NCBI RefSeq assembly: GCF_000711885.1
Contig: NZ_JONK01000011.1
Span: 1 to 64,000, forward strand
Origin: Chromobacterium haemolyticum DSM 19808
GTDB taxonomy: Bacteria > Pseudomonadota > Gammaproteobacteria > Burkholderiales > Chromobacteriaceae
Reading direction: 5' to 3'
DNA length: 64,000 nucleotides
Shown: piece by piece, positions 32,199 through 61,402 of the stretch
How the letters are laid out: each line of letters opens with the position of its first letter
Numbering within the stretch: position 1 is the first letter of the stretch
Notes under the pieces: model-generated
What the model was told of the DNA's origin: nothing
Database searches by the model: none
Seen by the model: only the letters and a program-made list of their open reading frames with translations
Translations under genes and position numbers: made by a program

Positions 32199-33437
32199 GT
32201 GAGCAAACCAAAGGAAAGCAAGAACATGCTGGTTGGCCTCGACATCGGCACATCCAAGATCGTGGCGATCGTCGCAGAAGTCCTGGAGGACGGCCAACTC
32301 AATATCGTCGGCATGGGCCACACCCCGTCGCGCGGTTTGAAGCGCGGCATGGTGGTGAACATCGAATCCACGGTGCAGGCCATCCAGCGCGCGCTGGAAG
32401 AGGCCGAGCTGATGGCCGATTGCAAGATTCACGAAGTGTTCGCCGGCATTGCCGGCAGCCACATCAAGAGCGTGAACTCGCACGGCATGGTGGCGATCAA
32501 GGATCGCGAAGTCACCAAGATGGACATCGACCGCGTGATTGAAACCGCGCGCGCGGTGACCATCCCGCCGGACCATCAGGTGCTGCACATCCTGACTCAG
32601 GAATACAGCATCGACGGTCAGGAAGGCGTGCGCGAACCGCTGGGCATGAGCGGAGTGCGGCTGGAAGCCAAGGTGCACATCGTCACCGGCGCGGTGTCCG
32701 CCGCCCAGAACGTGACCAAGTGCGTGCGCCGCTGCGGCCTGGAAGTGTCCGACCTGGTATTGCAGCCGATGGCTTCCGCCATCGCGGTGCTGTCGGAGGA
32801 CGAAAAAGACCTGGGCGTGTGCCTGATCGACATCGGCGGCGGCACCACCGACATCGCGGTGTACGCCAACGGCGCGATCCGCCACACCGCGGTGATACCG
32901 ATCGCCGGCGATCAGATCACCAACGACATCGCCATGGCCTTGCGCACGCCCACCAAGGAGGCCGAGGACATCAAGATCCAGCACGCGGTGGCGCTGGTGG
33001 CGATGGCCGACCCCAGCCAGATGATAGAAGTGCCGGGCGTGGGCGAGCGCGGGCCGCGTCAGATGTCGCGCGCCACGCTGGCTGAAGTGGTTGAGCCGCG
33101 GGTGGAAGAGCTGTTCCAACTGGTGCAGCAGGAACTGCGCCGCAGCGGTTTTGAGGATTTGCTGTCCTCCGGCATCGTGCTGACCGGCGGCGCCAGCCTG
33201 ATGCCGGGCATGGTGGAGTTGGCGGAGGAAGTGTTCCACATGCCGGTGCGCGTTGGCGTGCCCAAGTATGTGGGCGGCCTGGCGGAAGTGGTGAAGACCC
33301 CGCGCTTCTCCACCGGCGTCGGCCTGCTGTTGTACGGCAAGGATCAGATTCAAACGCATACCGGCCCCAAGGTGGAGTCGGCGGGCGTGGGCCAGATGTT
33401 CTCGCGCATGAAGGCGTGGTTCGCTGGCAATTTCTAG
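32199..33437 (+). CDS. ftsA: FtsA, actin-like Z-ring membrane anchor
   Basis: 412 aa from GTG 32199, chosen because GGAG lies 6 bases upstream; TTG 32187 is an alternative. Actin-fold motifs: VGLDIGTSKIVAIVAE, IDIGGGTTDIAVY and LTGGASLMPGM. The C-terminal amphipathic helix (FSRMKAWFAGNF) is the membrane-targeting sequence and shows the gene ends naturally. Its TAG stop is followed immediately by repeat copy B, which separates it from ftsZ. Confidence 0.96.
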   Translation: MSKPKESKNMLVGLDIGTSKIVAIVAEVLEDGQLNIVGMGHTPSRGLKRGMVVNIESTVQAIQRALEEAELMADCKIHEVFAGIAGSHIKSVNSHGMVAIKDREVTKMDIDRVIETARAVTIPPDHQVLHILTQEYSIDGQEGVREPLGMSGVRLEAKVHIVTGAVSAAQNVTKCVRRCGLEVSDLVLQPMASAIAVLSEDEKDLGVCLIDIGGGTTDIAVYANGAIRHTAVIPIAGDQITNDIAMALRTPTKEAEDIKIQHAVALVAMADPSQMIEVPGVGERGPRQMSRATLAEVVEPRVEELFQLVQQELRRSGFEDLLSSGIVLTGGASLMPGMVELAEEVFHMPVRVGVPKYVGGLAEVVKTPRFSTGVGLLLYGKDQIQTHTGPKVESAGVGQMFSRMKAWFAGNF

Positions 33438-33580
33438 GAGTTTGTTTACGATCCGCTGCGCGTCGGCGATACGGCGTTGAAAACGGCTTCAGAATGCTCA
33501 TGTACCGTATGTACATTCCGCTTCTTCAGCTGTTTTCGCCTGGTCTCGCTTTAGCTTGCAGGATCGTGAACATTTTACTA
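33435..33580 (-). repeat. Diverged copy B of the stop-codon-docked palindromic repeat, between ftsA and ftsZ
   Basis: Directly after the ftsA TAG, GAGTTTGTTTACGATC matches the repeat end; the core (AATGCTCATGTACCGTATG-type centre) and the far end (GGATCGTGAACATTTTACT) are recognisable but diverged. It occupies most of the 232-base ftsA-ftsZ spacer. The orientation given is that of the KSETRRKR reading frame, which carries one stop in this copy. Confidence 0.8.
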
Positions 33581-33669
33581 AGCGCTACGCGGCCGGCGCA
33601 CACGCTGGCCACGATAGCGATCGGGCAGATGTATCGGGTAGGTAGCTCATCTTTATTGAGGAGAGGAAA

Positions 33670-35885: not shown

Positions 35886-36068
35886 GTGTTCGGCTTCTGG
35901 CGCTTGTGGCTGCTCGTCACCATCCTGTTGTTGGGCTGGGCAGGCGTCTGTTATCTATTGACCCGCAATCCGCTCTACCTGCGCTACCTTGGCCGCATCG
36001 CCCGCTGGAGCGGCGGCCTGGTGGTACTGGTCAGCGCCTTCTGGCTGATTTACCGGCTACTGTCCTAA
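35886..36068 (+). CDS. Small membrane protein of unknown function
   Basis: 60 aa starting with GTG, 2 bases after lpxC. Two hydrophobic segments (about residues 5-24 and 40-58) flank a basic, Tyr/Arg-rich loop (RNPLYLRYLGRIARW), suggesting a helical hairpin in the inner membrane. I do not recognise a family. Its spacing suggests cotranscription and translational coupling with lpxC. The TAA stop directly abuts repeat copy C, and the preceding codons keep membrane character to the end. Confidence 0.65.
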   Translation: MFGFWRLWLLVTILLLGWAGVCYLLTRNPLYLRYLGRIARWSGGLVVLVSAFWLIYRLLS

Positions 36069-36212
36069 GAGCCTGTTTACGATCTCGCGAGCAAGAGCGA
36101 GACAAGGCGAAAACTAGCGAAAAAGCGGAATGTACTCGTGGTACATGAGCATTTTGAGGGAGTTTTCAACGCTGTATCGCCGAAGCGCAGCAGATCGTAA
36201 ACAGGTTCTAAG
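36066..36212 (+). repeat. Copy C of the stop-codon-docked palindromic repeat (near-complete)
   Basis: Terminal inverted repeats AGAGCCTGTTTACGATCT and AGATCGTAAACAGGTTCT bound about 142 bases (36068-36209). The centre is GTAC-nnnnn-GTAC. Inner segments of the two halves also partly mirror each other (GCGAGACAAGGCGAAAAC against a GCGATACAGCGTTGAAAAC complement). The TAA of the 60-aa gene forms its left boundary; moaC begins 24 bases beyond its right end. Confidence 0.9.
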
Positions 36213-41013: not shown

Positions 41014-43038
41014 ATGAAGATGAACAGACTGCTGCCTTTGGCGGCCTGGTTGTGCGCGGCCGGCGCATGGGCGGATAGCGGATTGGACTACGGCCGCTAC
41101 GGCATCGATTTGAACGGCATCGATCCGGCGGTGCGGGTGCAGGATAATCTGTCGCTGCATGCTAACGGGGGCTGGCTCAAGCACGCGGAGATTCCGGCCG
41201 AGCGTTCCTCTATCGGCGTGGCGGAAGTGTTGGCGGAGCGTAATCTGGAACGGCTGCGACAGTTGATAGAGCAGGCCGGTCAGGGCGCGGACGTCGGCAA
41301 GGAGGCGAGTCAGATAGCCGCCTTGTACCGCAGCTTTATGGACGAGGACACCATTGTCCGTCGCGGGCTGGAGCCGCTGCGCGAATCGCTGCGGGCGGTG
41401 GCCGGCCTGAATTCGACGGAGGAGGCGGTGCGTTATATGGGCCGGTTGCAGGATCAGCCGGTGGATACGCCGTTTCGCTTCTATGTCAGCCAGGACCCCA
41501 AGGACTCCGCCGTCTATCTGGCCGGAGTTGGCCAGTCAGGCCTGGCGATGGACCAGGATTACTACCTGGGCAAATCCGCGGATTTCGCCGCCGCGCGTCA
41601 GGCTTACTTGAAGTATCTGGAGCGTTTGTTCGCGCTGGCGGAACTGGACCCGCCGCAAAGCCGCGCTCGCGATGTGCTGGCTTTCGAAACGCGCTTGGCG
41701 AAAATCCAATGGACCAATGTCGAGAACCGCGACATCCAGAAAACCTACAACAAGCTGAGCCTGGCCGAGCTGGCTCGCCGGCAGCCGGGCTATGATTGGT
41801 CGGCTTTGTTGAGCGACGCCGGCCTGGGCGCGGCCAAGCAATTGAACTTGGATCAGCCCGGCTATCTGAGCAAGCTGGCGCCGCTGCTGCGGACCACATC
41901 GGCGGCCACATTGCGCAATTATCTGCTGGCGCGCACGCTGGACGCCTACGCGCCCAGCCTGACGCCGGCCTTCGTCGATGCCCACTTCGATTTCTACGGC
42001 AAGACGCTGGAAGGCCGCAAGCAAAACCGGCCGCGCTGGAAACGCGGTGTGAGCGTGGTGGAAAGCGGGCTGGGAGAGGCGCTGGGCAAACTTTACGTGG
42101 CGCGCTATTTCACGCCGGAAGCCAAGCGCCAGGCCGACGAACTGGTGCGCAATCTGCTGAAAGCCTATGACCAGTCCATCGACACTCTGGACTGGATGAG
42201 CGAGGCCACCAAGCGGCAGGCTCATGTCAAGTTGTCCAAATACGCCTTGAAGATAGGCTATCCGGACAAGTGGAGGAGTTACGAGGGCCTGGAACTGTCC
42301 CCGGACGATTTGGCCGGCAATGCGCGGCGCATCGCAAGCTTCAACTACCGGTATATGATCGGCAAGCTAGGCCAGCCGGTGGACCGCAAGGAATGGAGCA
42401 TGACGCCGCAGACGGTCAACGCCTATTACAACCCGGCCAATAACGAGATTGTGTTTCCAGCCGCCATCCTGCAAGCGCCGTATTTCGATCCCGGCTTCGA
42501 CCCGGCGGTCAACTACGGCAGCATTGGGGCCACCATCGGCCACGAAATCAGCCACGGTTTCGACGACCAAGGCAGCCAATTCGACGGCGACGGCAATATG
42601 CGCAACTGGTGGACCGCCACGGACAATGCGCGCTTCAAGGCCGCCACGCGCAAGCTGGTCAAGCAATACGGCCGTTACCAGCCGGTGCCCGGCCATTACG
42701 TCAACGGCGAGCTGACGCTGGGCGAGAACATCGCCGACAACGCCGGCCTGGAAGTGGCGTACAAAGCCTACCATTTGGCGTTGGGCGGCAAGGAGGCTCC
42801 AGTGCAGGACGGCATGAGCGGCGACCAGCGCTTCTTTATCGCCTTCGCCCAATCCTGGCGGAGCAAAACCCGCGACGAGGCCACGCTCAAGCAACTAGTG
42901 TCGGACCCGCACACGCCGGACTTGTGGCGCCCCATCGGCACCGCCAGCAATATGGAGCCGTTTTACCAGGCTTTCGACGTCAAGCCGGGCGACAAGATGT
43001 ATTTGCCGCCTAAGCAACGTTTCCATTTGTGGTGGTAA
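41014..43038 (+). CDS. M13-family zinc metallopeptidase (neprilysin/PepO type)
   Basis: 674 aa with a Sec signal peptide (MNRLLPLAAWLCAAGAWA). The catalytic zinc motif is H510-E-I-S-H514 (TIGHEISHGFDDQG), with E571-N-I-A-D575 supplying the third ligand, and NAYYNPANNEIVFPAAIL upstream. Such periplasmic endopeptidases cut oligopeptides. A strong AAAGGGGAAAAC site precedes the ATG. Its TAA directly abuts repeat copy D, which fills the gap to the convergent AraC gene. Confidence 0.94.
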   Translation: MKMNRLLPLAAWLCAAGAWADSGLDYGRYGIDLNGIDPAVRVQDNLSLHANGGWLKHAEIPAERSSIGVAEVLAERNLERLRQLIEQAGQGADVGKEASQIAALYRSFMDEDTIVRRGLEPLRESLRAVAGLNSTEEAVRYMGRLQDQPVDTPFRFYVSQDPKDSAVYLAGVGQSGLAMDQDYYLGKSADFAAARQAYLKYLERLFALAELDPPQSRARDVLAFETRLAKIQWTNVENRDIQKTYNKLSLAELARRQPGYDWSALLSDAGLGAAKQLNLDQPGYLSKLAPLLRTTSAATLRNYLLARTLDAYAPSLTPAFVDAHFDFYGKTLEGRKQNRPRWKRGVSVVESGLGEALGKLYVARYFTPEAKRQADELVRNLLKAYDQSIDTLDWMSEATKRQAHVKLSKYALKIGYPDKWRSYEGLELSPDDLAGNARRIASFNYRYMIGKLGQPVDRKEWSMTPQTVNAYYNPANNEIVFPAAILQAPYFDPGFDPAVNYGSIGATIGHEISHGFDDQGSQFDGDGNMRNWWTATDNARFKAATRKLVKQYGRYQPVPGHYVNGELTLGENIADNAGLEVAYKAYHLALGGKEAPVQDGMSGDQRFFIAFAQSWRSKTRDEATLKQLVSDPHTPDLWRPIGTASNMEPFYQAFDVKPGDKMYLPPKQRFHLWW

Positions 43039-43182
43039 GAACCTGTTCATAATCTGCTGCGCTGCGGCGATACTGCGTTAAAAACCGCTTCGAAATGCTC
43101 ATGTACCACTTGTACATTCCGCTTTCTCAGCCGTTTTCGCCTTGTCTCGCTCTTGCTCGCTAGATTTTGAACAGGCTCTAAG
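43036..43182 (-). repeat. Copy D of the stop-codon-docked palindromic repeat (near-complete)
   Basis: Begins at the M13 peptidase stop (TAA-GAACCTGTTCATAATC) and ends TTTTGAACAGGCTCTAAG, 6 bases before the stop of the convergent AraC gene, so it occupies the entire intergenic space. The centre is GTAC-nnnnn-GTAC as in the other copies. Confidence 0.9.
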
Positions 43183-50523: not shown

Positions 50524-50551
50524 GGCAAAAAGCCCCGGCGGACCGGGGCTT
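50524..50551 (-). terminator. Intrinsic terminator of the chemoreceptor gene, now separated from it
   Basis: On the minus strand AAGCCCCG-GTCCGC-CGGGGCTT is followed by a run of T (TTTTTGCC). It serves transcripts coming from the chemoreceptor gene, whose stop is 226 bases away; one full and one half repeat lie in between. Confidence 0.8.
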
Positions 50552-50573
50552 GGGGGAGGGGAAGGCTTGGAAC

Positions 50574-50635
50574 GTGTTTTCAACGCCCTTTTCTATCGAT
50601 CTCGCTGACGCGCAGCAGACCGCAAACAGGCTTTT
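50574..50635 (+). repeat. Half copy E' of the stop-codon-docked palindromic repeat
   Basis: GTTTTCAACGCC... through CGCAGCAGACCGCAAACAGG aligns with the right half of copies C and E, with several changes. It lies in direct tandem with full copy E, sharing the junction CTTTTAGAGCC. Confidence 0.7.
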
Positions 50636-50779
50636 AGAGCCTGTTCACGACTTCGCGAGCAAGAGCGAGACAAGGCGAAAACGAGCGAAAAAGCGGAATG
50701 TACAAGGGGTACATGAGCATTTTGAGCTTGTTTTTAACGCCGTATCGCCGCAGCGCAGCAGATCGTGAACAGGTTCTTA
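50636..50779 (+). repeat. Copy E of the stop-codon-docked palindromic repeat (near-complete)
   Basis: AGAGCCTGTTCACGACTTC at the left and GATCGTGAACAGGTTCTTA at the right bound a 142-base imperfect palindrome with a GTAC-nnnnn-GTAC centre. The last three bases (TTA) are the complement of the TAA stop of the chemoreceptor gene. Confidence 0.9.
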
Positions 50780-52384
50780 GAGGCGGAAGCGGCCCACGGT
50801 CTGCTGCAGGGTATCCGCCTGCTGATCGATGGCGCGCACCGCTTGCACTGCGTTGCTGACCGAGTTCTGAGTTTCCTCCACCACGCCGGCCACCTGTTCG
50901 ACATTGCCGGCGATATTGGTGCCGGCCTGGCTTTGTTCGCCCATCGCCACGACGACATTGTGCACGTTCTCCAGCGCCTGGCTGGCTTGCTTGCTGATGG
51001 CGTCCAGGGTCTGGGCCGCCTGTTGCACCTGTTCCACGCCGCCCTCCACCGCCGGACGGATGTCGTCCATCTGGTTGGACACGCTGCCGGTTTCGCTCAC
51101 CACCGCTTGCACGATGGTGGAGATTTCATCGGTGGCGGTGGCGGTGCGTTCGGCCAGCTTGCGCACTTCGTCGGCCACCACCGCGAAGCCTCGGCCGGTT
51201 TCGCCTGCGCGGGCGGCTTCGATCGCGGCGTTCAGCGCCAGCAGATTAGTCTGGTTGGCGATATCGCGTATGGTCTCGGCGATGCCGCTGATGTTGCGGG
51301 TGCGCTCTGCCAGTTTGCCCACCATATCGCTGGCCGCATGCACTTGGCCGGCGATATTGCGGATGCCGTCGGCGGCTTGGGCGGCCAGCGCTTCGCCTTG
51401 GCGCGCCAGTTCCACGGTGCCGCGCGAGCCGGACTCGGTATCGCGAGCGCTGGCGGTGACGTGGTCGATGCTGACCGACAGCTGCTCAATGGCGGCGGCG
51501 GCGGAACTGGTGGAGGAGCTGGCCACGCCGGACACTTCGTGCACCTTGTCCATGTCGCTGGACAGCTGGCGGCTGGCCTGGTTGATATGGGTGGCCGCCA
51601 GGCGGATCTCTTCTATCATCTGGCGCAGTTTCAGCTGCATTTCGCGCATCGCCGCCAGAAGGCTGTGCGGCGGGCCCTGTACCGCGATGTCGGTGCCCAG
51701 GTCGCCGTCGGCGATGGCCTTGACCACCTGCGCGGCATAGTTGGGATCTCCGCCCAGAGATTGCATGATGCTGCGCGATACCAGCAGGATCAGCCCGGCA
51801 AGCGTGATCATGCCGATGGCGGCGATGATCAGCAGCGTGCGCGCCTGACTCCAGAACAGTTGGTCGATGTCGTCGATGAAAATGCCGGTGCCCACCATCC
51901 AGCCCCAAGGCTCGAAGCGCACCACGCCGTTGAGTTTGGGAAATTCTTCCTTGCTGCCCTTGCGCGAGGTCTGGATGGTCACCAGGCCGTAGTGGTCCTT
52001 CTGCAGCGCCTCTTCATAGACCGCCACCGTGGTGCGGCCGTCCGGCAGGGTGCTGCCCATGTCCACTTTGCCCACCCGGTCCTTGTTGGGGTGAAACATC
52101 ACTACGTTTTGCGGGTTGCGGCCGAAGAAGTAGATATCATCCACCTTGAGCGCGTTGAGCGCGGCGATGGCTTGTTTTTGGGCGTCGGCGCGCGGCAGGC
52201 CTTTTTCTTCCAGCTTCTGGAAGTGGCTCATCGTGCCTTCGGCCATGCGCAGCAGGTGGGTGATTTGCTCGCGCTTTTCCTGGACCAGCGTGGCGCGGGT
52301 GGAGAGCAGCGCCACGGCCGCGATGCTTAGCAGAGCCAGCAGGCTGGCCGCCATGATGATGAACAGTCTGGTATTGACCCGCAT
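50777..52384 (-). CDS. Methyl-accepting chemotaxis protein with a periplasmic Cache domain
   Basis: 535 aa. Membrane helix 1 (about residues 7-28), an sCache_2-type sensor (about 37-185, with [19 protein letters not shown] and [14 protein letters not shown]), membrane helix 2 (185-207), HAMP (about 208-260) and a cytoplasmic signalling coiled coil. The hairpin tip [20 protein letters not shown] is unmistakable. It senses a small periplasmic ligand and controls CheA. There is no C-terminal CheR-tethering pentapeptide; the protein ends VGRFRL. A FliA-type promoter candidate lies upstream. Confidence 0.95.
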
Positions 52385-61337: not shown

Positions 61338-61402
61338 AGAGCTTTTCGAGCTTGTTTTTACGCTATATCACCAACGCGCAGCAGATCGTGAACACGTTCT
61401 CA
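61338..61402 (+). repeat. Half copy F of the stop-codon-docked palindromic repeat
   Basis: GAGCTTTTCGAGCTTGTTTTTACG through CGCAGCAGATCGTGAACACGTTC matches the right half of copy E. The terminal TCA is the complement of the TGA stop of the phosphoesterase gene, at exactly the position where other copies carry TTA. The left half is absent; the cysA terminator lies there instead. Confidence 0.75.

Follow-up and report, generated by a model that had tools for sequence, protein, structure and literature searches.

In Chromobacterium haemolyticum DSM 19808, a short palindromic transposable element lies directly against stop codons, at zero spacing, and does so much more often by one of its two ends than by the other. 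Our best overall explanation, with about even confidence, is an insertion that duplicates a TNA triplet combined with a one-sided excess that arises mainly by retention.

We use the window to mean the whole 64,000-nucleotide stretch analysed (positions 1 to 64,000 of contig NZ_JONK01000011.1). Element ends are named L and R by the orientation of the window copy at 50637-50776 (+ strand), and an end is called docked when it lies at distance 0 from a gene's stop codon. A sequence-only reading of the window had placed an element end flush with the stop codon at six loci. All six junctions stand at the positions it reported, but the one at azlD is made by the tip of an insertion sequence (IS) and not by the repeat. 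That tip (1-87, − strand) is the left tip of IS-B, an autonomous IS5-family IS cut by the contig start, and it adjoins the azlD stop TAA (88-90, −; AzlD by Pfam), which is a TNA target triplet; positions 1-90 match, in 90 of 90 bases, the left tip of the IS-B copy found at the end of contig C14 (L406).

Among the docked window copies of the repeat, only the one at a gene for a 60-aa protein is docked by its L end, and the other four by the R end. The ftsA stop TAG (33435-33437, +) is one copy of a duplicated triplet, which reads TAA in empty sites (L437, L438); the element follows with its R end against the stop (33438-33578, −; profile match 114 bits), and the second triplet copy, TAA (33579-33581, +), continues into GCGCTACG as it does in the empty sites. 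The 60-aa gene ends at a duplicated TAA (36066-36068, +), so that its element (36069-36208, +) has TAA on both sides (36066-36068 and 36209-36211). The same arrangement is seen at the peptidase M13 gene (Pfam), where the stop TAA (43036-43038, +) is a duplicated triplet and the R-docked copy (43039-43178, −) lies between it and a further TAA (43179-43181). At the chemoreceptor (Pfam), the first triplet copy is TTA at 50634-50636 and the second is the stop TAA itself (50777-50779, −), with the R-docked copy (50637-50776, +) in between; this copy now abuts an older R part of the element (50567-50633, +), which ends at the TTA that served the newer copy as its insertion site. Finally, the stop TGA of the phosphoesterase (61400-61402, −; Pfam), again a TNA triplet, is docked by a partial copy that consists of the R part only (61338-61399, +).

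Judged from its sequence, the repeat is a MITE of an IS5-family (NF033580-type) insertion sequence. It is short (about 140 bp), palindromic, without a transposase gene and present in many copies; it is flanked by a TNA target-site duplication (TSD), and its ends, GARCCTGTTYACGATC or GARCCTGTTCAAAGTC, are terminal inverted repeats held in common with autonomous elements, both sequences being found on the two MITE types and on the two ISs. A search with a 21-base end pattern, allowing up to 3 mismatches, finds 637 termini in the 5.03-Mb genome against 4 for the reversed control, which gives an estimated copy number of about 320 (637 / 2). In a genome sample of 1,263,729 bp (60 stretches from contigs C1-C3 plus the window), a profile built from 30 copies yielded 123 distinct MITE matches. 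The nearest named relatives among the matches listed are Chromobacterium species, with collinear matches.

The first of the two autonomous ISs is 856 bp long (C3:189661-190516, including both triplet copies) and has the ends GARCCTGTTCAAAGTC. Its transposase lies in pieces in two frames and matches DUF4096 (78.2 bits) and DDE_Tnp_1 (109.6). Against NF033580, the IS5 profile with a cut-off of 110, the longer transposase piece scores 150.8 bits and the shorter 97.7, below the cut-off, and this IS is thus placed in the IS5 family by its longer ORF piece only. Between it and the stop of the adjoining gene lies a 10-bp copy of an element end with an extra TTA (C3:190517-190529). The second, IS-B, has the ends GAACCTGTTTACGATC and sits at contig ends, where N-terminal transposase matches were found. 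Both IS end types are also present among MITE copies, and on the basis of these common ends the MITE would be moved by the transposase of its partner IS. We do not claim that the R end of the MITE corresponds to the left end of the IS, because the inner sequences match no better than shuffles. At three places (L239, L240, L241) a full IS has directly behind it a MITE whose L end is the same, a pair that may move as a unit.

A core of about 100 bp is common across Pseudomonadota, where it carries terminal inverted repeats of clearly different types (L195-L223), and it seems to exchange its ends. When two candidates per genome were scored in 398 Pseudomonadota genomes, at least 32 of them, counting this one, had a core match. 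An alignment of 128 copies (the first 60 of the Chromobacterium set plus 68 from other genera) shows several stem pairs in which both bases have changed. Read on the + strand, the core pairs include 150 G-T against 26 A-C, one column pair giving 72 of the G-T, and in the other genera alone the ratio is 89 to 12; this excess hints at selection on the fold of one strand. The predicted folds of two window copies are −62.0 and −57.4 kcal/mol for the + strand and −52.9 and −48.3 kcal/mol for the − strand. A scan of one window copy found no terminator or promoter, and by eye a T tract flanks the stem. Across 17 loci and 501 bp of the window, no Rfam match reached its gathering score; the best match over an element copy was BcKCsr7, a Burkholderia sRNA, at 23.5 bits against a gathering score of 59, and it covers 50526-50627 (−) of the window, overlapping the old partial copy.

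The zero spacing itself is, as far as sequence comparison can tell, mechanical. Insertion at C|TNA|G-like sites almost certainly duplicates the TNA. The flanks read C before the triplet and G after it, and the L and R flanking triplets in the genome sample are identical in 39 of the 59 copies whose ends are good and in 46 of all 89 two-ended copies, where mismatched pairs would give 31%. Occupied sites carry two TNA and the element-free sites of relatives one, in a comparison of 34 pairs of which many concern one copy nested inside another element. Insertion at a stop codon would leave the coding sequence and its stop on one side of the element and the second TNA with the old 3' region on the other. 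Because TAA and TGA are themselves TNA triplets, the duplication would rebuild the stop, and the element would begin at the very next base. A minority of copies are one base off, and a TAG stop then borrows the first base of the element. The sequence-only reading had argued that three stop types at zero spacing could not easily be chance. This stands, but no special mechanism is needed, since TAA and TGA fit TNA and the TAG of ftsA is TAA in the empty sites. Target choice at gene ends, which it had proposed, is borne out: with the TNA duplication an insertion can land exactly on a stop codon, and this accounts for the zero spacing as well as for the proteins being intact. Its other proposal, a role in mRNA 3' ends, may or may not hold.

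The ftsA empty site reads TTC-TAA-GCGCTACG in two relatives (L437, L438), and together with the far duplicate TAA this indicates that the ftsA stop was probably TAA originally. FtsA ends at the same codon in 19 genus loci, one per genus genome searched, of which only the window genome and one relative (L436) have a full element called. The M13 peptidase has its stop at the same position in 16 of 16 aligned genus loci, with the element called in 2 of the 16. Truncation by the element is ruled out for both genes, their stops being unchanged across these 19 and 16 loci. For these two genes this agrees with the earlier reading. Five of the six junction proteins have a Pfam family, the exception being the 60-aa protein. 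By eye, a short element scar can be seen at ftsA in L435 and end-like scars at the M13 peptidase in L416 and L417, which suggests that the palindrome was deleted between its ends. In L427 the M13 peptidase gene is followed only after about 15 nt by a sequence resembling an element end, which is hence undocked.

When the distance of element ends to the nearest stop was tabulated, a peak at zero appeared and not an even spread, in agreement with the earlier reading. Of the element ends in the 1,263,729 bp sampled from the own genome, 42 of the 109 R and 9 of the 103 L stand at distance 0 (Fisher p = 3.2e-7), whereas stops make up 920 of the 9,402 available TNA sites and 145 of the 552 CTNAG sites. 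Genes were called by a purpose-written codon-based script, not a standard tool, which recovered the genes at 6 of 6 window junctions. Other Chromobacterium loci gave 49 of 124 R ends and 13 of 122 L ends at distance 0, in a non-random sample chosen via an exact core pattern in which some sites may be common to species. For 18 loci of other genera the counts are R 3/11 and L 2/11, with a gene caller not trained for those genera.

We then compared docking with a target model, using 181 two-ended Chromobacterium copies of plausible length and end scores of at least 10/15. These comprise 73 R-docked, 19 L-docked and 80 undocked copies, plus 9 within 2 nt of a stop that count in the total and in no expected class. 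The symmetric model takes TNA and 4 nt on each side, with weights drawn from 71 undocked copies, and expects 20.6 copies at stops in each orientation; R docking is at 3.55 times this value (73) and L docking at 0.92 times (19). The difference between R and L ends at distance 0 (R0 and L0) has p = 1.2e-8, copies being treated as independent in our p-values. The excess over a target-only model is therefore at one end of the element, R, a point that the sequence-only reading had missed. We are highly confident that surviving copies at stops mostly have the R end against the stop, at about 3.5 times the symmetric expectation, with L docking at expectation. Counts for all 201 two-ended copies (R0 80, L0 20) and for one-ended copies (R0 11/32, L0 2/24) are also given here. 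Chance adjacency is ruled out by the own-genome counts, the shares of TNA and CTNAG sites and the excess over the target model.

The polarity is confined to distance 0. Between 3 and 30 nt downstream of a stop, 4 R and 11 L copies were observed for 8.3 expected of each, and between 31 and 150 nt 15 R and 21 L for 20.4; pooled over 3-150 nt, this makes R 19 and L 32 against 28.7. Elsewhere in non-coding sequence, copies are scarcer than the model predicts, with 29 observed for 82.4 expected (0.35). In convergent regions the observed and expected counts are 29 and 7.4 for R docking, 6 and 7.4 for L docking, and 20 and 13.6 for sites inside the region, in a count of 158 of the 181 copies that omits 15 at locus edges and 8 within 2 nt. 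The two triplets of the TSD are identical at similar rates in R-docked (48/73), L-docked (14/19) and undocked copies (49/80). No trend of R/L docking was seen across quartiles of model score, a rough proxy for age (R0/L0 of 13/4, 24/6, 19/6 and 17/3). A second family of the same class (73 loci, 72 with a match) repeats the polarity: R ends are docked in 33 of 72 (29 at distance 0 and 4 within 2 nt) and L ends in 8 of 71 (6 and 2; p = 5.7e-6). A further family (49 loci) shows docking without clear polarity, with R 13/43 and L 8/41 within 3 nt (p = 0.32); it has the same core, and many of its elements have TA-type ends that overlap TAG or TAA stops. Both replication sets were picked from search matches and are not random, and they leave out L195 (same place as L270), L286 (same as L204), L206, L207, L209 and L210.

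Tentatively, and with slightly less than even confidence, we ascribe the one-sided excess mainly to retention of the least harmful insertions. An insertion that separates the stop from the native 3' region of its gene would spare the protein, the stop and the terminator. An element at this position is probably transcribed, so its orientation would matter: R docking would place the less strongly folding strand in the mRNA, and L docking the more stable, G-T-tolerant strand, whose copies would be lost more often. Undocked insertions would either upset promoters and terminators or stay untranscribed, and would be thinned without orientation bias. We favor retention on two grounds: the polarity is found only at distance 0, where transcription ahead of the native 3' region is likeliest, and the two strands fold differently. 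Several observations speak against it. There is no age trend, whereas the effect of retention should grow with age, and the elements with TA-type ends have no clear polarity despite the common core. R docking is also in excess over even the convergent intergenic sites, so that either it is advantageous or those sites are not neutral.

The rival explanations are not mutually exclusive and can hold together. If the only factor were that stops are the best C|TNA|G sites an element can enter without disruption, both the zero spacing and the number of L-docked copies (19 against 20.6) would be accounted for, as stops are 145 of the 552 CTNAG sites. The undocked-site matrix, used asymmetrically, even leans to R at stops, expecting fractions of 0.144 R and 0.084 L where 0.424 and 0.110 are observed (172 copies), so part of the polarity could come from target sequence; the asymmetric model narrows the R gap without closing it. 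The same matrix (4 nt) scores the R orientation higher at 54 of 72 R-docked and 13 of 19 L-docked sites. Yet it performs at chance in leave-one-out prediction of the orientation of the 71 undocked copies (33, 41, 33, 33 and 35 right for 1, 2, 4, 6 and 10 nt). We rejected an asymmetric local target motif for this reason, though the matrix leans to R at stops. With R docking at 73 against 20.6, or 0.424 against 0.144, and R0 so far from L0 (p = 1.2e-8), pure target preference is very improbable. Docked stops differ from unoccupied ones by C before, G after and T at −2/−3. A native terminator hairpin was likewise rejected as target, the mean flank folding energy of R-docked sites (−11.8) being near that of control stops (−10.9). 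It is just as hard to credit that new copies entering beside old ends or scars at stops multiplied the R docking. End-like sequence is present in the L flank of 19 of 73 R-docked copies and in the R flank of none, IS and MITE adjoin at several contig ends, and relatives have the scars at ftsA and the M13 peptidase. Re-use of stops is common; still, the 54 of 73 copies without a remnant at the threshold used are well above 20.6, so that part of the excess is left over, and the first R docking would be left unexplained.

Among the undocked copies of the own genome, both orientations toward gene ends are seen. This, the chance-level prediction of undocked orientation and the lack of an age trend together mean that gene direction may act at insertion, or later selection may sort orientation, or both, with some help from the target sequence. 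It is possible, though we think it unlikely, that the IS5-type transposition complex prefers stops one way and reads gene direction via transcription or translation, not from local sequence. The flat age quartiles, the restriction of polarity to distance 0, the failure of local sequence to predict undocked orientation and the same polarity in the second family would all fit. So would the IS-B ends of this genome: of 8 left ends (the window and 7 contig ends) 3 are docked, 2 undocked and 3 adjoin MITEs, and of 9 right ends 1 is docked, 5 adjoin another element and 3 are undocked. These are few ends, however, and at the relative locus L411 the IS is docked by its right end, its left end not being at distance 0. 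Nor do we know of any means by which a DDE transposase could detect stop codons. The fuller version, in which the IS5-type system recognises stops orientation-dependently, couples insertion to gene direction and lets elements land harmlessly behind genes, is doubtful. We consider it improbable that the core is a portable 3' element, a terminator or mRNA stabiliser under positive selection behind stops. Its conservation, the stem pairs changed on both sides across genera and the A and T tracts seen by eye around the stem would suit such a role, but R copies are not in excess 3-150 nt downstream (19, with 32 L, against 28.7), and there is no terminator in the one copy scanned and no Rfam match at gathering score.

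Among known systems, the partner IS and the MITE are probably closest to the IS1031-like, TNA-target group of the IS5 family. They are alike in transposase family, TNA duplication, inverted ends and non-autonomous relatives, and the window MITE differs in its polar stop-codon docking and its roughly 320 copies. Among more distant systems, NuwaII transposons (eukaryotic PHIS superfamily) have the same C|TNA|G target (PMC4482050); these elements are eukaryotic and lie outside the bacterial IS5 clade in the tree shown there. The passages on Coxiella burnetii QMITE2 in a review (PMC10969869) put it mainly in 3' untranslated regions, a location like that of our MITE, with direct repeats given as 7-9, and do not describe zero spacing or polarity. 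REP/BIME and REPIN sequences are likewise repetitive, palindromic and present in many copies, and the window MITE differs from them by its DDE-type partner and TNA duplication. The R178 repeats of Pseudomonas fluorescens, 101 bp with internal 11-bp inverted repeats (PMC2718517), resemble the shared core in size. Stop-codon docking of an IS5 MITE was absent from the titles and abstracts searched, which cover subscription literature thinly, and novelty in print is not established.

For annotators, these results are a warning that in such genomes many genes have their stop codon and first 3' bases formed by a transposon junction. A 3-bp duplication would turn stop codons into safe landing sites. 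The orientation bias has been measured and repeated, and target sequence explains it incompletely. It bears on whether mobile elements can sense the direction of genes or whether selection sorts their orientation in the 3' untranslated region.
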